A stretch of DNA of 27,727 bases. Source: a virus. Below, piece by piece: positions 2,225 through 23,454 of this stretch. The notes below the pieces were generated by a model. That model was not told where the DNA came from, did no database searches, and worked only from the letters and a program-made list of their open reading frames with translations. Both the position numbers and the translations under genes were made by a program. The stretch is from positions 1 through 27,727 of the IMG/VR virus record IMGVR_UViG_3300032265_002532; one strand, given 5' to 3'. Numbering within the stretch: position 1 is the first letter of the stretch; the number at the start of each line of letters is the position of its first letter.

Positions 2225-3046
2225 ATGAAAAAAATTCTATTTGCCGTACTGCTAGCGGCCACAAGTCTAGCATCACACGCTTGGACTCAAAGAGCTCCGC
2301 AAGATCCACAGGCCTGTCGGGTACATGCACCCTACGGTTTCCCACAAACAGCAGGTGTACAACCTATTTGCCGACAAGCATACCTAGTAGGTTACGATGC
2401 GGCTGCTAAACTACCCAAGTATGTAACATATGAACTATTACCTCAAAACGCTCTCGGCTGTGTCGCTCGCACTAATGCTTTTGCTAGTGATCAATCTGTT
2501 CCAAATGGAGCCACTCCCGCAGATTATGTTGGTACAGGATACGACAAAGGGCACATGTCTCCAGATGGTGACCTATCGTGGGACACTCAAGTTGAGTTTG
2601 AATCATTCTTAATGACCAACATGAGCCCACAAGCAGGTTCATTAAATCGTGGTATCTGGAAGCTGTTAGAAACTAGTGTTCGTGGTTGGGCAGTACAACG
2701 CAATCAATCATATACTGTTTATGTGGGCGGTGTATATGGCGCCGGAGATAAAACTATCGGCAAGGGTGTTGTAGTACCACATGGCTTCTACAAGATTGTG
2801 GTCAACAATCAAACCAATGAAGTTGCTGGTTGGGCATTTCCCCATGTTGCACCATATCCTAACTTAGGTAATGATTTGACCAAGTTCCGATTACCAATTG
2901 CGCAGATTGAAACTACAGCAGGTGTTAAGTTTGCCTATCCAGCAGGTGCTAAAGAATTACAACCAGGTCAAGAATGGCCTGTAGACTTTGGAGCATTGAC
3001 CAATGCCAAGCGAGCCAAATGTGGTGCTACTGCAAGTGACGATTAA
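2225..3046 (+). CDS. Secreted DNA/RNA non-specific endonuclease (NUC1/EndA family)
   Basis: This 273-residue protein begins with a clear Sec signal peptide (MKKILFAVLLAATSLASHA, cleavage likely after residue 19). The beta-beta-alpha-metal nuclease core shows 'GYDKGHMSP' with general-base His110, corresponding to the Serratia nuclease DRGH motif. It also has 'TNMSPQAGSLNRGIWKLLE', carrying the Mg ligand Asn141 and a downstream Glu149. The family cleaves single- and double-stranded DNA and RNA. Four cysteines in the mature part could form disulfides, in keeping with a periplasmic or extracellular site. Export is unusual for a T4-like phage enzyme; it might attack incoming DNA in the periplasm or reduce viscosity at lysis. 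The stop overlaps the next start (TAATG). Confidence 0.92.
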   Translation: MKKILFAVLLAATSLASHAWTQRAPQDPQACRVHAPYGFPQTAGVQPICRQAYLVGYDAAAKLPKYVTYELLPQNALGCVARTNAFASDQSVPNGATPADYVGTGYDKGHMSPDGDLSWDTQVEFESFLMTNMSPQAGSLNRGIWKLLETSVRGWAVQRNQSYTVYVGGVYGAGDKTIGKGVVVPHGFYKIVVNNQTNEVAGWAFPHVAPYPNLGNDLTKFRLPIAQIETTAGVKFAYPAGAKELQPGQEWPVDFGALTNAKRAKCGATASDD

Positions 3047-4125: not shown

Positions 4126-4698
4126 TTACTTAAACTTTTTTATTCGTTCTTTGATAATTTTGATCACCGGTTCAGCTAATACAACTTCGTAGTGATTATA
4201 GTCTACATCTACTAGTTCCATATCTGCATGATGCTTCTGACTAGCGATAGTTACCACACCGTCGTTGGGTTCGTGCATGAAAGGACTTTGCCCTTTGACT
4301 GTAACTACATTGGTCCAAGGGTGCTGTATTTTAATCTTATCCGACTGCTTCATTACCCACGAACTAGGACCTATATCACGCATTAGTCTGCTAAACGGCA
4401 AGAAGTACTGTGCATAGTCTGCGACTTCTGCACCACCATAGGGTGTGCTTAATGTCACAGCTCCTTTGACACTAGTAGGTATACTGTTAGCTAAATGCAA
4501 ACTGTAAATGCCTCCTAGACTATGGGCAATAAACACTATGTCTTTGCAGTCTTGCAATGTAGACTGCATGTCTTTTAGGTTATTTTCGAACCCATTACGA
4601 CTATCATAGTTGAGATCTATACCTTTACCAAGTTTACTTTTGATATAGTTAAAGCTCTCGCTGGTGGCATTGGCGCCGTGTATGTACACTAGTTTCAT
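4126..4698 (-). CDS. Alpha/beta hydrolase (lipase/esterase-like)
   Basis: From the ATG at 4698 the product has 190 residues: 'MKLVYIHGANATSESF' (oxyanion-hole HG motif), nucleophile elbow 'FIAHSLGG' with Ser60, then 'LSTPYGG', 'HEPNDGVVT' with the likely acid Asp146, and 'VDYNHYEVV' with the likely catalytic His169. All three triad residues are therefore present in the right order. The frame stays open upstream to an ATG at 4758, but the extra 20 residues look unstructured and would overlap the small gene at 4715-4813, so the internal start is preferred. Neither start has a strong Shine-Dalgarno sequence. It is the last gene of the minus-strand operon promoted near 5250. The substrate is unknown; acyl esters or membrane lipids are possible. 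Confidence 0.82.
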   Translation of the reverse strand: MKLVYIHGANATSESFNYIKSKLGKGIDLNYDSRNGFENNLKDMQSTLQDCKDIVFIAHSLGGIYSLHLANSIPTSVKGAVTLSTPYGGAEVADYAQYFLPFSRLMRDIGPSSWVMKQSDKIKIQHPWTNVVTVKGQSPFMHEPNDGVVTIASQKHHADMELVDVDYNHYEVVLAEPVIKIIKERIKKFK

Positions 4699-4714
4699 GC
4701 CAATATTTATCGGC

Positions 4715-4813
4715 TTAGAACCAGCCTTCGAACTCGCTAGTGATAATGGGATGTACATCCCATCCGTCTTGTTTCCAGCGTAGCAACATGATTAGTGTTT
4801 CGATAAAGCTCAT
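4715..4813 (-). CDS. Tiny protein (32 aa) in minus-strand operon
   Basis: The start overlaps the stop of the upstream tiny gene (ATGA, 4810-4813). The product begins MSFIETLIMLLRWKQDGWDV and ends EFEGWF. An N-terminal hydrophobic helix is followed by a Trp-rich polar tail, so it may be a small membrane-associated or protein-binding peptide. Coding is supported by the exact stop/start overlap and its place in a run of four similar tiny genes. No family is recognised. Confidence 0.55.
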   Translation of the reverse strand: MSFIETLIMLLRWKQDGWDVHPIITSEFEGWF

Positions 4814-4911
4814 TGTGCTATAACCAAGTAAACAATCATAGCTGAGATAGCGGCCATTGCTAGCTTAGGGCCGTATTCGCGCTCTTCCCACTTTTTAGCA
4901 AATTCTTTCAT
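4810..4911 (-). CDS. Tiny single-span membrane protein (33 aa)
   Basis: This gene has a proper ribosome binding site (GGAG, 8 bases before ATG). The product starts MKEFAKKWEEREYGPKLAMA and continues with ISAMIVYLVIAQ: a charged amphipathic N-terminal half and a hydrophobic C-terminal span, suggesting an inner-membrane anchor with the N-terminus in the cytoplasm. Its stop (TGA) overlaps the ATG of the next gene. Small early phage proteins of this sort often modify host membrane processes, but nothing in the sequence identifies a target. Confidence 0.6.
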   Translation of the reverse strand: MKEFAKKWEEREYGPKLAMAAISAMIVYLVIAQ

Positions 4912-4912
4912 G

Positions 4913-5005
4913 TTAGCTCCAGTATCTGCCTTTAAACATGGCATCTGCTCGTGCTTGTTGAATTTCTTTGATAACTTCGTAGATTGTTGTAAAAAATTTT
5001 TTCAT
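4913..5005 (-). CDS. Tiny amphipathic protein (30 aa)
   Basis: The ATG overlaps the stop of the 58-codon gene upstream (ATGA) and is preceded by AAAAGGAAAC. The product, MKKFFTTIYEVIKEIQQARA followed by DAMFKGRYWS, is a single amphipathic helix with an aromatic C-terminus. Similar 30-40-residue proteins ending in RYW-type motifs occur in T4-like marine phages as far as I recall, but I cannot confirm homology. Coding is supported by the ribosome binding site, the overlap, and the tight join to the next start (one base apart). Confidence 0.6.
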   Translation of the reverse strand: MKKFFTTIYEVIKEIQQARADAMFKGRYWS

Positions 5006-5178
5006 AAATAAGTTTCCTTTTGAGAATTGAATCTTTGGATATAGTGGTCCAATTGTGCGGCATCGGTAATGCCTTTGGTGCTTAGATAAGCGTCTAAGCG
5101 GCTTTGATAGGAACTGTCGGGGAACATTTCAGCTAGGCGTTCCATAATTGCTAGCATAAAATCTGATAGAGTTTTCAT
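5002..5178 (-). CDS. Small protein (58 aa), first gene of minus-strand operon
   Basis: This encodes 58 residues from an ATG preceded by AAGGAAAACACACA. The N-terminal helix MKTLSDFMLAIMERLAEMFP is followed by 'SYQSRLDAYLSTKGITDAAQLDHYIQRFN'. The second part (a 'LDAYL...ITDAAQLDHYI' pattern) recalls the short DUF3563-like family, a weak resemblance only. It is the promoter-proximal gene of the operon ending in the alpha/beta hydrolase. The sigma70-like promoter about 60 bases upstream indicates early expression by host polymerase. Confidence 0.65.
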   Translation of the reverse strand: MKTLSDFMLAIMERLAEMFPDSSYQSRLDAYLSTKGITDAAQLDHYIQRFNSQKETYL

Positions 5179-5233
5179 TGTGTGTTTTCCTTGTGTGTTG
5201 TAGTACTCATGGTTTCTACTGAGTATTTATGCT

Positions 5234-5262
5234 ATTATATATTGCGACCGCACAAATCACAA
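5234..5262 (-). promoter_or_regulatory. Sigma70-like promoter of the minus-strand small-gene operon
   Basis: On the minus strand, TTGTGA (5257-5262) and TATAAT (5234-5239) are separated by exactly 17 bases. It lies upstream of the gene starting at 5178. On the opposite strand a weaker extended -10 (TGCTACAAT, 5285-5293) faces the gene at 5334, making 5179-5333 a divergent promoter region. Confidence 0.7.
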
Positions 5263-19257: not shown

Positions 19258-20151
19258 ATGTCTAGTCCTTGGATTACTAAATCTGGAATACAGAAAAACA
19301 GCACTAGCCCGGCGGTTGATGATCTATATCAATCGCCTAATGTATTCATCAATGGGGTTCCTGTTGTTCTATATAATCCGCCCGGGGATAGCCCGGCTGT
19401 GGCCGCAATAACACTGGCCACAGTGTCCAACGACGAAGTATATTTTTCCAAAGGCCCCGAAGCCGCCAAGCAATACATCCAGAGTCTCGTGACTGCGGGT
19501 GTTATGACACAGGCCGAAGTTGATGCTGGCACGGCGGCTGCGGCGGCCCTCTCTACATCTACTGCCGCTGTTACTGCTGACTTTGCCGGAACCAGTGTAG
19601 CGGCTGATTGTAAGGCCATACACGGATTGACTAGTTTCCCTGATAGCCTAGTGTTGACTCCTAAGGGAACTACGCTGGGCGATCTATTACGGAAGGTAAC
19701 ATTCCCTAATCACAATATAGTGGCACAGAAAGGGCTTACCAAGGATCAGATTGTCTGCAATCTGGCCAACCTAGCACAAAACATTTACGAACCATTAAAG
19801 GCTCAGTTTCCCGATGTTTTTATAACCAACACTTTCCGTGAAGGTGAAAATCAAAGTCAACACGGCACTGGTCAAGCTATGGACATACAGTTCCATAGAT
19901 TGCCTAGCAAGGATTATCTAGCAAGAGCAGAATGGATCAAGGCTAACTTACCCTATGATCAATTGTTGTTGGAATGTCACACTAGTGGAGCTCTTTGGAT
20001 ACATGTGAGCCATTATAGTGGCACCGGCATAAATGTACATGCTAAATCCCAAGGTAATTGGTATGCTACTATGATTAATGACAAAGACTTTACACCGGGG
20101 CTAAGGGATCTATCTGTTGTACCGGGAGTCAGACCAGTCCCTGCGGCGTAA
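19258..20151 (+). CDS. PAAR-like spike-tip domain fused to M15 peptidase
   Basis: This encodes 297 residues. The N-terminus ('TSPAVDDLYQSPNVFINGVPVVLYNPPG', about 16-43) follows the PAAR-repeat pattern of spike-tip proteins (GSPNVFING.PV). An Ala-rich linker follows (about 85-115). The C-terminal part has the M15 (VanY/D-Ala-D-Ala) zinc peptidase motifs 'SQHGTGQAMDIQF' (His202, Asp209), 'QLLLEC' (catalytic Glu239) and 'LWIHVSH' (His249). It therefore combines a membrane-piercing tip with a peptidoglycan-cleaving enzyme, analogous to the lysozyme domain in T4 gp5 and the PAAR protein gp5.4. It probably acts in the periplasm during infection. There is no signal peptide or Shine-Dalgarno sequence. 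Confidence 0.85.
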   Translation: MSSPWITKSGIQKNSTSPAVDDLYQSPNVFINGVPVVLYNPPGDSPAVAAITLATVSNDEVYFSKGPEAAKQYIQSLVTAGVMTQAEVDAGTAAAAALSTSTAAVTADFAGTSVAADCKAIHGLTSFPDSLVLTPKGTTLGDLLRKVTFPNHNIVAQKGLTKDQIVCNLANLAQNIYEPLKAQFPDVFITNTFREGENQSQHGTGQAMDIQFHRLPSKDYLARAEWIKANLPYDQLLLECHTSGALWIHVSHYSGTGINVHAKSQGNWYATMINDKDFTPGLRDLSVVPGVRPVPAA

Positions 20152-22326: not shown

Positions 22327-22454
22327 AAGTTAAAAAATTAATCTTAAAATTGAACAAGGCCGAATTAGAGCATAATCTAAAAAAGGTCAAAGAACTTTGG
22401 TTTAAAATATTAAAGAAAAGTCTCAAGGGTAAACACACTGAGGCAGTTCGTTAA
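22323..22454 (+). CDS. Small Lys-rich helical protein (43 aa)
   Basis: The ATG overlaps the stop of the exported protein gene (ATGA). The product starts MKVKKLILKLNKAELEHNLK and continues KVKELWFKILKKSLKGKHTEAVR. It is a highly basic amphipathic helix and could bind nucleic acid or acidic membranes. It ends 4 bases before the duplicated tmRNA segment (22459). The exact overlap and consistent Lys/Leu/Glu composition support translation. No family is recognised. Confidence 0.55.
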   Translation: MKVKKLILKLNKAELEHNLKKVKELWFKILKKSLKGKHTEAVR

Positions 22455-22458
22455 AAGT

Positions 22459-22519
22459 TAAGACTGTATGAAGTCGATTGAAACGGATTCTGGACGCGGG
22501 TTCGATTCGCGAGTCGAAC
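22459..22519 (+). repeat. Truncated duplicate of the tmRNA acceptor piece, ending in a palindrome
   Basis: From 22459 the sequence aligns without gaps to the functional acceptor piece at 23151. The first 16 bases (TAAGACTGTATGAAGT) are identical, then ATTGAAACGG and GGACG are shared, up to TTCGA of the T-loop (22501-22505 versus 23193-23197). After the T-loop the two diverge entirely. The end forms a near-perfect 20-base palindrome, GTTCGATTCGCGAGTCGAAC (22500-22519, one G-T mismatch). Its T-stem cannot pair properly, so it is not a working acceptor. It is probably the scar of the original gene or of a recombination event that introduced the endonuclease. Confidence 0.8.
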
Positions 22520-22531
22520 ATAAATAATATT

Positions 22532-23173
22532 ATGTTCTACACAGTTTATAAAACAACTAATCTTATCAACGGCAAAATCTATGTTGGCCTTCATATAACT
22601 AATAATCTAGAAGATGATTATTTAGGAAGTGGGTCTCAACTTAAATCGGCAATCAAGAAATACGGTAAAGAAAACTTCAAAAGAGATTACATTAAAATAT
22701 GTAACTCTCCTGAAGAAATGTATGAGTTAGAAGCAGACATTGTAAATGAAGACTTTGTTAAAAGGTCAGATACTTACAATATGAAAACAGGCGGTACAGG
22801 ATCTTGGTATCATGTAAATTCTAATCCAGCAGAAAAAAGTAGGACTAGCAGTATAGGCGGAGTAAAGACTTCTAGCAGAGATACGAATCCTTTTAAGGAT
22901 CCAGAATGGCAGAAACAATACGAATGGACACGCTCTCCGGAGATATTAAAAGCTAACAGTATCAAAGCCAATAGTCCAGATGCTATTGCTAAAAAGAAAG
23001 CTACTTGGAAAGAAACAGGTAGAGGACAAGGTAGTAAAAATTCACAATATGGAACCTGTTGGGTTACACATAGTGAGTTAGGTAATAAGAAGATCAGTAA
23101 AGATGATCTTGACAAGTTTCTAACTTTAGGTTATACTAAAGGCAGAAAGATAAGACTGTATGAAGTGAATTGA
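22532..23173 (+). CDS. GIY-YIG endonuclease (putative homing endonuclease) in the tmRNA locus
   Basis: From ATG 22532 the product has 213 residues. The GIY-YIG domain starts 'MFYTVYKTTNLINGKIYVGLH' with the variant VYK...YVG. Then come 'DDYLGSGSQLKSAIKKYGKENFKRDYI' and 'EMYELEADIVNEDFV', whose Glu is the likely catalytic metal ligand. The C-terminus ('NSQYGTCWVTHSELGNKKISKDDLDKFLTLGYTKGRK') is a DNA-binding module typical of phage GIY-YIG homing enzymes. A longer TTG start at 22478 lies in the repeat and is not favoured. CATAAATA (22519-22526) sits just upstream and there is no Shine-Dalgarno sequence. The last 23 bases overlap the tmRNA acceptor piece, so its C-terminus (IRLYEVN) is written by the tmRNA sequence. 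Confidence 0.85.
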   Translation: MFYTVYKTTNLINGKIYVGLHITNNLEDDYLGSGSQLKSAIKKYGKENFKRDYIKICNSPEEMYELEADIVNEDFVKRSDTYNMKTGGTGSWYHVNSNPAEKSRTSSIGGVKTSSRDTNPFKDPEWQKQYEWTRSPEILKANSIKANSPDAIAKKKATWKETGRGQGSKNSQYGTCWVTHSELGNKKISKDDLDKFLTLGYTKGRKIRLYEVN

Positions 23174-23427
23174 AACGGGTCTTGGACGGGAGTTCGAATC
23201 TCCCCTCCTCCACCGAAGCATATTTGTAATAGTATTTTTCGGTGGGGGAGTACATGGTTTCGACAGGGTCAAGAGTAATGAAATGGACAGTCCGGCAATG
23301 TAGAAGCCGTTAGGATTGGGGTAACCCGGTCGAAGAAGCAAAACAAAGTAAACGCAAACGACTCACAGTTCGCATTAGCTGCCTAAACTCAGCTTAGGGT
23401 AAGACATACCTCGTAACAGAAACTCAA
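23151..23427 (+). ncRNA. ssrA: Circularly permuted (two-piece) tmRNA
   Basis: The acceptor piece comes first: T-arm GGGAG-TTCGAAT-CTCCC (23188-23204), acceptor strand CTCCTCC (23205-23211), discriminator A and CC (23212-23214). A 29-base linker (23215-23243) follows, extending the acceptor helix by ACCGAA/TTCGGT. The coding piece begins GGGGGAG (23244-23250), which pairs fully with CTCCTCC, including the G3-U70 wobble needed for alanine charging. 'TGGTTTCGACAGG' is the conserved tmRNA 5' signature. The tag frame (23354-23386) reads ANDSQFALAA then TAA. CAAGA near 23270 can pair with TCTTG in the acceptor piece, as expected for helix 2. The terminal A of CCA is not encoded. The RNA would rescue stalled ribosomes and tag proteins for proteolysis. 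The 5' end of the acceptor piece and the 3' end of the coding piece are approximate. Confidence 0.92.
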
Positions 23428-23454
23428 GAACCCGCTTCGGCGGGTTTCTTTTTG
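23428..23454 (+). terminator. Rho-independent terminator of tmRNA
   Basis: The stem AACCCGC/GCGGGTT with a TTCG tetraloop is followed by TCTTTTT. Twenty-six bases (23431-23456) are identical to the terminator at 24075-24100. Confidence 0.92.

Follow-up and report, generated by a model that had tools for sequence, protein, structure and literature searches.

Very small accessory genes of T4-like phages occur in hyperplastic ORFan clusters, where they are mostly non-essential and unevenly spread among relatives, as described for T4 55.1 and 55.2 (PMC4396842). T4 late promoters, which are read by gp55, carry the consensus TATAAATA at −13 to −6, and Aeh1 has CTAAATA (PMC1524935). Both systems resemble a locus in the window, by which we mean the whole 27.7 kb virus record analysed here, itself possibly a fragment. 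Four minus-strand ORFs (A, B, C and D; 58, 30, 33 and 32 aa in the ORF listing) occupy positions 4715–5178, followed by a fifth gene, H, which was absent from the preliminary description. As in the T4 ORFan clusters, the genes are small, accessory and patchily present among relatives. However, T4 55.1 and 55.2 lie in other regions and have been studied individually, whereas the present locus combines a near-constant A–B core, a fixed slot order, a late-type promoter and a hydrolase. A–D are new protein families of a known kind of cluster, that of phage accessory micro-genes, and A–B–C–D–H probably form a translationally coupled, late-type accessory micro-operon of a T4-supergroup jumbo phage. 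The locus comprises the following features:

5234..5262, minus strand: sigma70-like site TTGTGA-17-TATAAT, overlapping the late promoter and poorly conserved in the upstream-region alignment
5224..5231, minus strand: T4-type late promoter core CATAAATA upstream of A, its TAAATA conserved
5205..5224, minus strand: conserved leader element ACTCAGTAGAAACCATGAGT between the promoter and A, with a 5-bp hairpin possible
5002..5178, minus strand: gene A, 58 aa, with three predicted helices, heading the operon almost invariably
4913..5005, minus strand: gene B, 30 aa, amphipathic, in a slot that holds several allele types in relatives
4810..4911, minus strand: gene C, 33 aa, single membrane span near the C-terminal end, optional slot
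4715..4813, minus strand: gene D, 32 aa, LLRWKxxGWEVHPI..EFxGWF, optional
4704..4711, minus strand: GATAAATA, directly upstream of H
4126..4698, minus strand: gene H, 190-aa alpha/beta hydrolase

The four tiny overlapping genes of the preliminary description were reproduced in position, size, ATGA overlaps (A/B and C/D) and the 1-base gap between B and C. Ribosome binding sites, reported there for three of the four, were located at A (AAGGA), B (AAGGA) and C (GGAG), D having no Shine-Dalgarno-like site. The 33 aa of C are counted from the ATG served by GGAG, a 44-aa form also being possible. H starts 16 nt past D on the same strand. Ribosomes would load at A, B and C, and D would be translated by re-initiation through the C/D ATGA overlap.

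Relatives were drawn from related viral contigs, which supplied 368 stretches with a relative of H and 388 with a relative of A (each search retaining its best 80); pN/pS was computed after duplicate removal on pairs 70–97% identical. Gene A yielded a pN/pS of 0.31 over 102 distinct nucleotide sequences, compared with 1.28 and 1.79 in its other frames. Values were 0.28 and 0.33 for the B families B1 and B2, 0.16 for C1 (three pairs only, from five distinct relatives), 0.31 for C2, 0.26 for D (52 distinct nucleotide sequences) and 0.14 for H; shifted frames ranged from 0.69, a single case, to 6.2 across slots and nearly always exceeded 1. An ATGA overlap joins A to B in 120 of 121 distinct loci and C to D in all 26. 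The window's own B allele was found only here, sharing slot, overlap and N-terminal pattern with other B alleles; as it has no close relative, constraint on it is deduced from position and N-terminal similarity. Conservation of the frames in relatives and coding constraint had been set beforehand as the refutation test, and the genes passed it, with intact frames and low pN/pS. On these substitution patterns, A–D are genuine protein-coding genes under purifying selection. Many relatives also keep open an additional overlapping frame (5063–4932, opening MPHNW), but with lengths anywhere between 25 and 85 codons; it was therefore taken as a by-product of the conservation of A.

Comparison of gene order revealed that the cluster is conserved across more than 100 related loci as a swappable set, arranged in nearly all of them as divergent V, A, B, optional C, optional D, optional H and S. 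A and B are near-constant, C and D being optional inserts in fixed order before H. Among the 107 loci with readable downstream context, C was present in 20 and D in 44, and 19 of the 20 C-bearing loci also carried D, C occurring without it once only (Fisher P 3.8e-8). Some loci lack H, C or D; in three, H is inverted downstream of S, and in others it is preceded by a cupin-like gene. Four loci (L008, L092, L139 and L158) carry between B and H an inserted 138-aa gene that is cupin-like by eye and gave no NCBIfam match. The B slot accommodates at least two allele families (B1, 39–40 aa; B2, 31–34 aa) in addition to the window's type, and the C slot two unrelated-looking membrane peptide types, C2 replacing C in other loci. 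At locus L050 of a 345 kb relative (G002), the A and B slots between V and C1, behind the same TAAATACTCAGTAGAAAC leader, are filled by proteins of 51 and 33 aa that have diverged strongly and for which searching found no convincing relatives. The variable presence of C and D, the alternative B and C types and the diverged A/B slots together show whole genes being gained, lost or replaced at gene boundaries.

The upstream regions share a late-type element. TAAATA lies upstream of A in 98 of 99 distinct loci, against 20% in shuffles, and all 85 upstream regions of V, the divergent virion-type gene, contain it as well. In 51 of 65 distinct H upstream regions it ends up exactly 11 nt ahead of the start codon. 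By T4 spacing, the H transcript would start at the ATG, giving a leaderless mRNA. Eight of the nine DATAAATA sites in the window fall within 65 nt upstream of a same-strand gene start, and the ninth at 66 nt (P 3e-10); their raw count is not enriched (9 versus 7.8 expected), so the late-promoter argument rests on placement and conservation. A gp55-type late sigma is encoded in all five relatives of 330–353 kb (E 1e-60 to 1e-80; also phrog_234). Accordingly with gp55-read T4 late promoters (PMC1524935), these phages share a TATAAATA-type core conserved upstream of A and V, with TAAATA as in the CTAAATA of Aeh1, and relatives encode a gp55 homologue; unlike in T4, the first position of the octamer is variable here (C, A, G or T).

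The preliminary description had placed the cluster under one sigma70-like promoter and called it early. That site is present and scores 10/12, yet it is poorly conserved: only 67 of 99 loci have a −10-like hexamer at any position within 130 nt upstream of A, and sigma70-like sites in the region are at chance level (9 found versus 7.6 ± 2.4 expected). The early label likewise fits poorly with the conserved late promoter core, the virion-type neighbours and the gp55-type sigma of relatives. Because TAAATA is the conserved element and relatives encode gp55, late-phase transcription of the operon, driven by a gp55-type promoter, is strongly indicated, a better reading than an early sigma70 promoter. 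Since the sigma70-like and late elements overlap in the window, an additional early start may occur.

Between this promoter and A, alignment of the upstream regions revealed strong conservation of ACTCAGTAGAAACCATGAGT, and the 12-mer TCAGTAGAAACC at the leader site occurs elsewhere only once in five relatives. A structured RNA leader was considered and rejected, as 90.6% of cells pair but compensatory change is absent and shuffles do equally well. In view of this lack of covariation, a protein-binding site or a constraint on transcription initiation is as likely as a hairpin.

Structure prediction with AF2 placed helices in A at residues 2–18, 23–34 and 40–57 (pLDDT 74), including the motif DAYLxTKGITDAAQLxxYI, and a fold search of A in BFVD gave no meaningful match. 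The single-span membrane protein announced among the four proved by hydropathy to be C (Kyte-Doolittle 2.56 over 15 residues), and the other three are amphipathic as described, B strongly (moment 0.63) and A and D moderately. D retains 11 invariant columns among 15 aligned sequences, with a W/H/P-rich core. None of the A–D peptides matched Pfam, PHROG, NCBIfam or PADLOC families, the empty PADLOC search saying little as PADLOC-DB lists defence, not counter-defence, proteins. Across 50,697 annotated phage records, megablast of the window found no similar DNA, and protein-level searches with A and H likewise came back empty. No relative of A was found in bacterial genomes; none of B was found in 97 genomes of one bacterial family, a search without a positive control that shows little. 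A TPR identity for B alleles was discarded, the best E value (0.0057) being insufficient.

A relative carries a T4-type large terminase, with PA5oct-like Pseudomonas jumbo phages closest (53%), and on the best reading the window would come from a T4-supergroup jumbo phage. A permuted-type betaproteobacterial tmRNA at 23095–23451 (plus strand; RF01850 115 bits, RF04321 106 bits; tag ANDSQFALAA), together with the homologues of H, makes a Burkholderiales host a reasonable inference. The 5′ part of this tmRNA recurs as a degenerate partial copy (22441–22530 versus 23140–23235), and between copy and tmRNA sits a homing-endonuclease-like ORF (22523–23173, within 22441–23235, plus strand), recognized by weak, below-cut-off similarity to a model of group I intron endonucleases; the last ORF codons overlap the tmRNA start, and the insertion may carry a gene-restoring copy. 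The window also encodes a DNA/RNA non-specific endonuclease (2225–3046, plus strand; PF01223, E 7e-41) with an N-terminus resembling a signal peptide, and, separate from the cluster, an endolysin-like gene at 19258–20151.

H matches the Pfam models Abhydrolase_6 (28.4 bits, cut-off 26.3) and PGAP1 (25.2 bits, cut-off 24.3). Ser60 (in AHSLGG), Asp146 and His169 are invariant among 20 aligned relatives and form a candidate catalytic triad. Comparison with PDB lipase chains gave E about 1e-4 in the nucleophile region, the likeness to Burkholderia/Pseudomonas-type lipases (PDB 1hqd, 1tah, 1cvl) lying around the nucleophile elbow (H residues 49–102). H differs from these enzymes in its 190-aa length and lack of an evident signal peptide; the lipase match spans only ~50 residues, and the relatives that cover H over its full length are chromosomal genes of Burkholderiales. 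One of them, at 44%, lies amid seemingly ordinary chromosomal genes in an Oxalobacteraceae MAG, and strong H relatives occur in 10 of 97 genomes of that MAG's family. The AF2 model of H is poor (pLDDT 56), too poor for a fold search. As H has neither an evident signal peptide nor an evident membrane span, its link to the membrane is thin.

Since C is membrane-spanning and B amphipathic, our leading guess, held weakly, is that late in infection the peptides might work at the host membrane or close to it, alongside the lipase-like H. Together with H, they might tune the host envelope or host proteins, and having optional modules would suit variation among hosts or strains. As the presence of C, D and H varies by locus, one joint function of the five products is only presumed.

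Other explanations were weighed against this late accessory micro-operon. An early cluster of host-takeover or anti-defence peptides, read by the host RNA polymerase from the 10/12 sigma70-like site upstream of A, would agree with modular small-gene gain and loss resembling arms-race loci and with the finding that T4 ORFans, e.g. 55.2, inhibit host proteins when expressed (PMC4396842); it is nevertheless unlikely, as it is not the sigma70 element that is conserved, the adjoining virion-type genes carry late promoter cores and no product is linked to any defence system. The late-type promoter would also suit a structural or lysis cluster in which A–D serve as minor virion peptides or assist lysis and H degrades the envelope, as would the divergent neighbour V, a phrog_11854 virion structural protein, and the pairing of a single-span peptide with a lipase-like hydrolase. 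We regard this assignment as rather improbable, given that C, D and H are each missing in many relatives, an uncommon pattern for components essential to lysis or the virion, and that the endolysin-like gene lies elsewhere. A slim chance is likewise accorded to a combinatorial peptide system, in which a constant A–B pair and swappable C and D, exchanged at gene boundaries, would act jointly at the host membrane late in infection; if true, it could serve, for example, superinfection exclusion, or counter-defence with specificity set by the module combination.

Two further alternatives concern the peptides themselves. A could be a phage form of the Burkholderiales small-protein family DUF3563 (PF12086), interfering with the host version. 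Members of this family, reached via an approximate family-like query and then checked against Pfam, are short and helical like A and share its DAYL...LE pattern; 9 of 40 A members match weakly (best E 0.015), and a genome carrying an H relative encodes DUF3563. However, A has two extra residues between the motifs and lies below every membership threshold: 0 of 40 A members reach the Pfam gathering cut-off (26.9 bits), and the search of the window was empty. Hhalign over the DAYL...LE segment returned E 0.0058 with a probability of 6.4% across 24 columns. The family itself has no assigned function, and no mention of it was found in the literature searched. The likeness is thus suggestive but appears to fall short of family membership, and such an origin for A is very doubtful. 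That A–D are spurious ORFs in a non-coding leader could be argued from their size (each <60 codons) and from their matching no family library, but with coding constraint and conserved overlaps in every slot this explanation is scarcely credible.

For the late accessory micro-operon, the late-type promoter shifts attention from early takeover to the late phase of infection. Genes of 30–60 codons fall under the usual annotation cut-offs, yet here they are kept under selection, in a jumbo-phage group that is large, mostly unannotated and without a match in the annotated phage records searched. Within this group, the natural slot combinations, with or without C, D and H and with several B alleles, constitute a library for comparing the function of variants.
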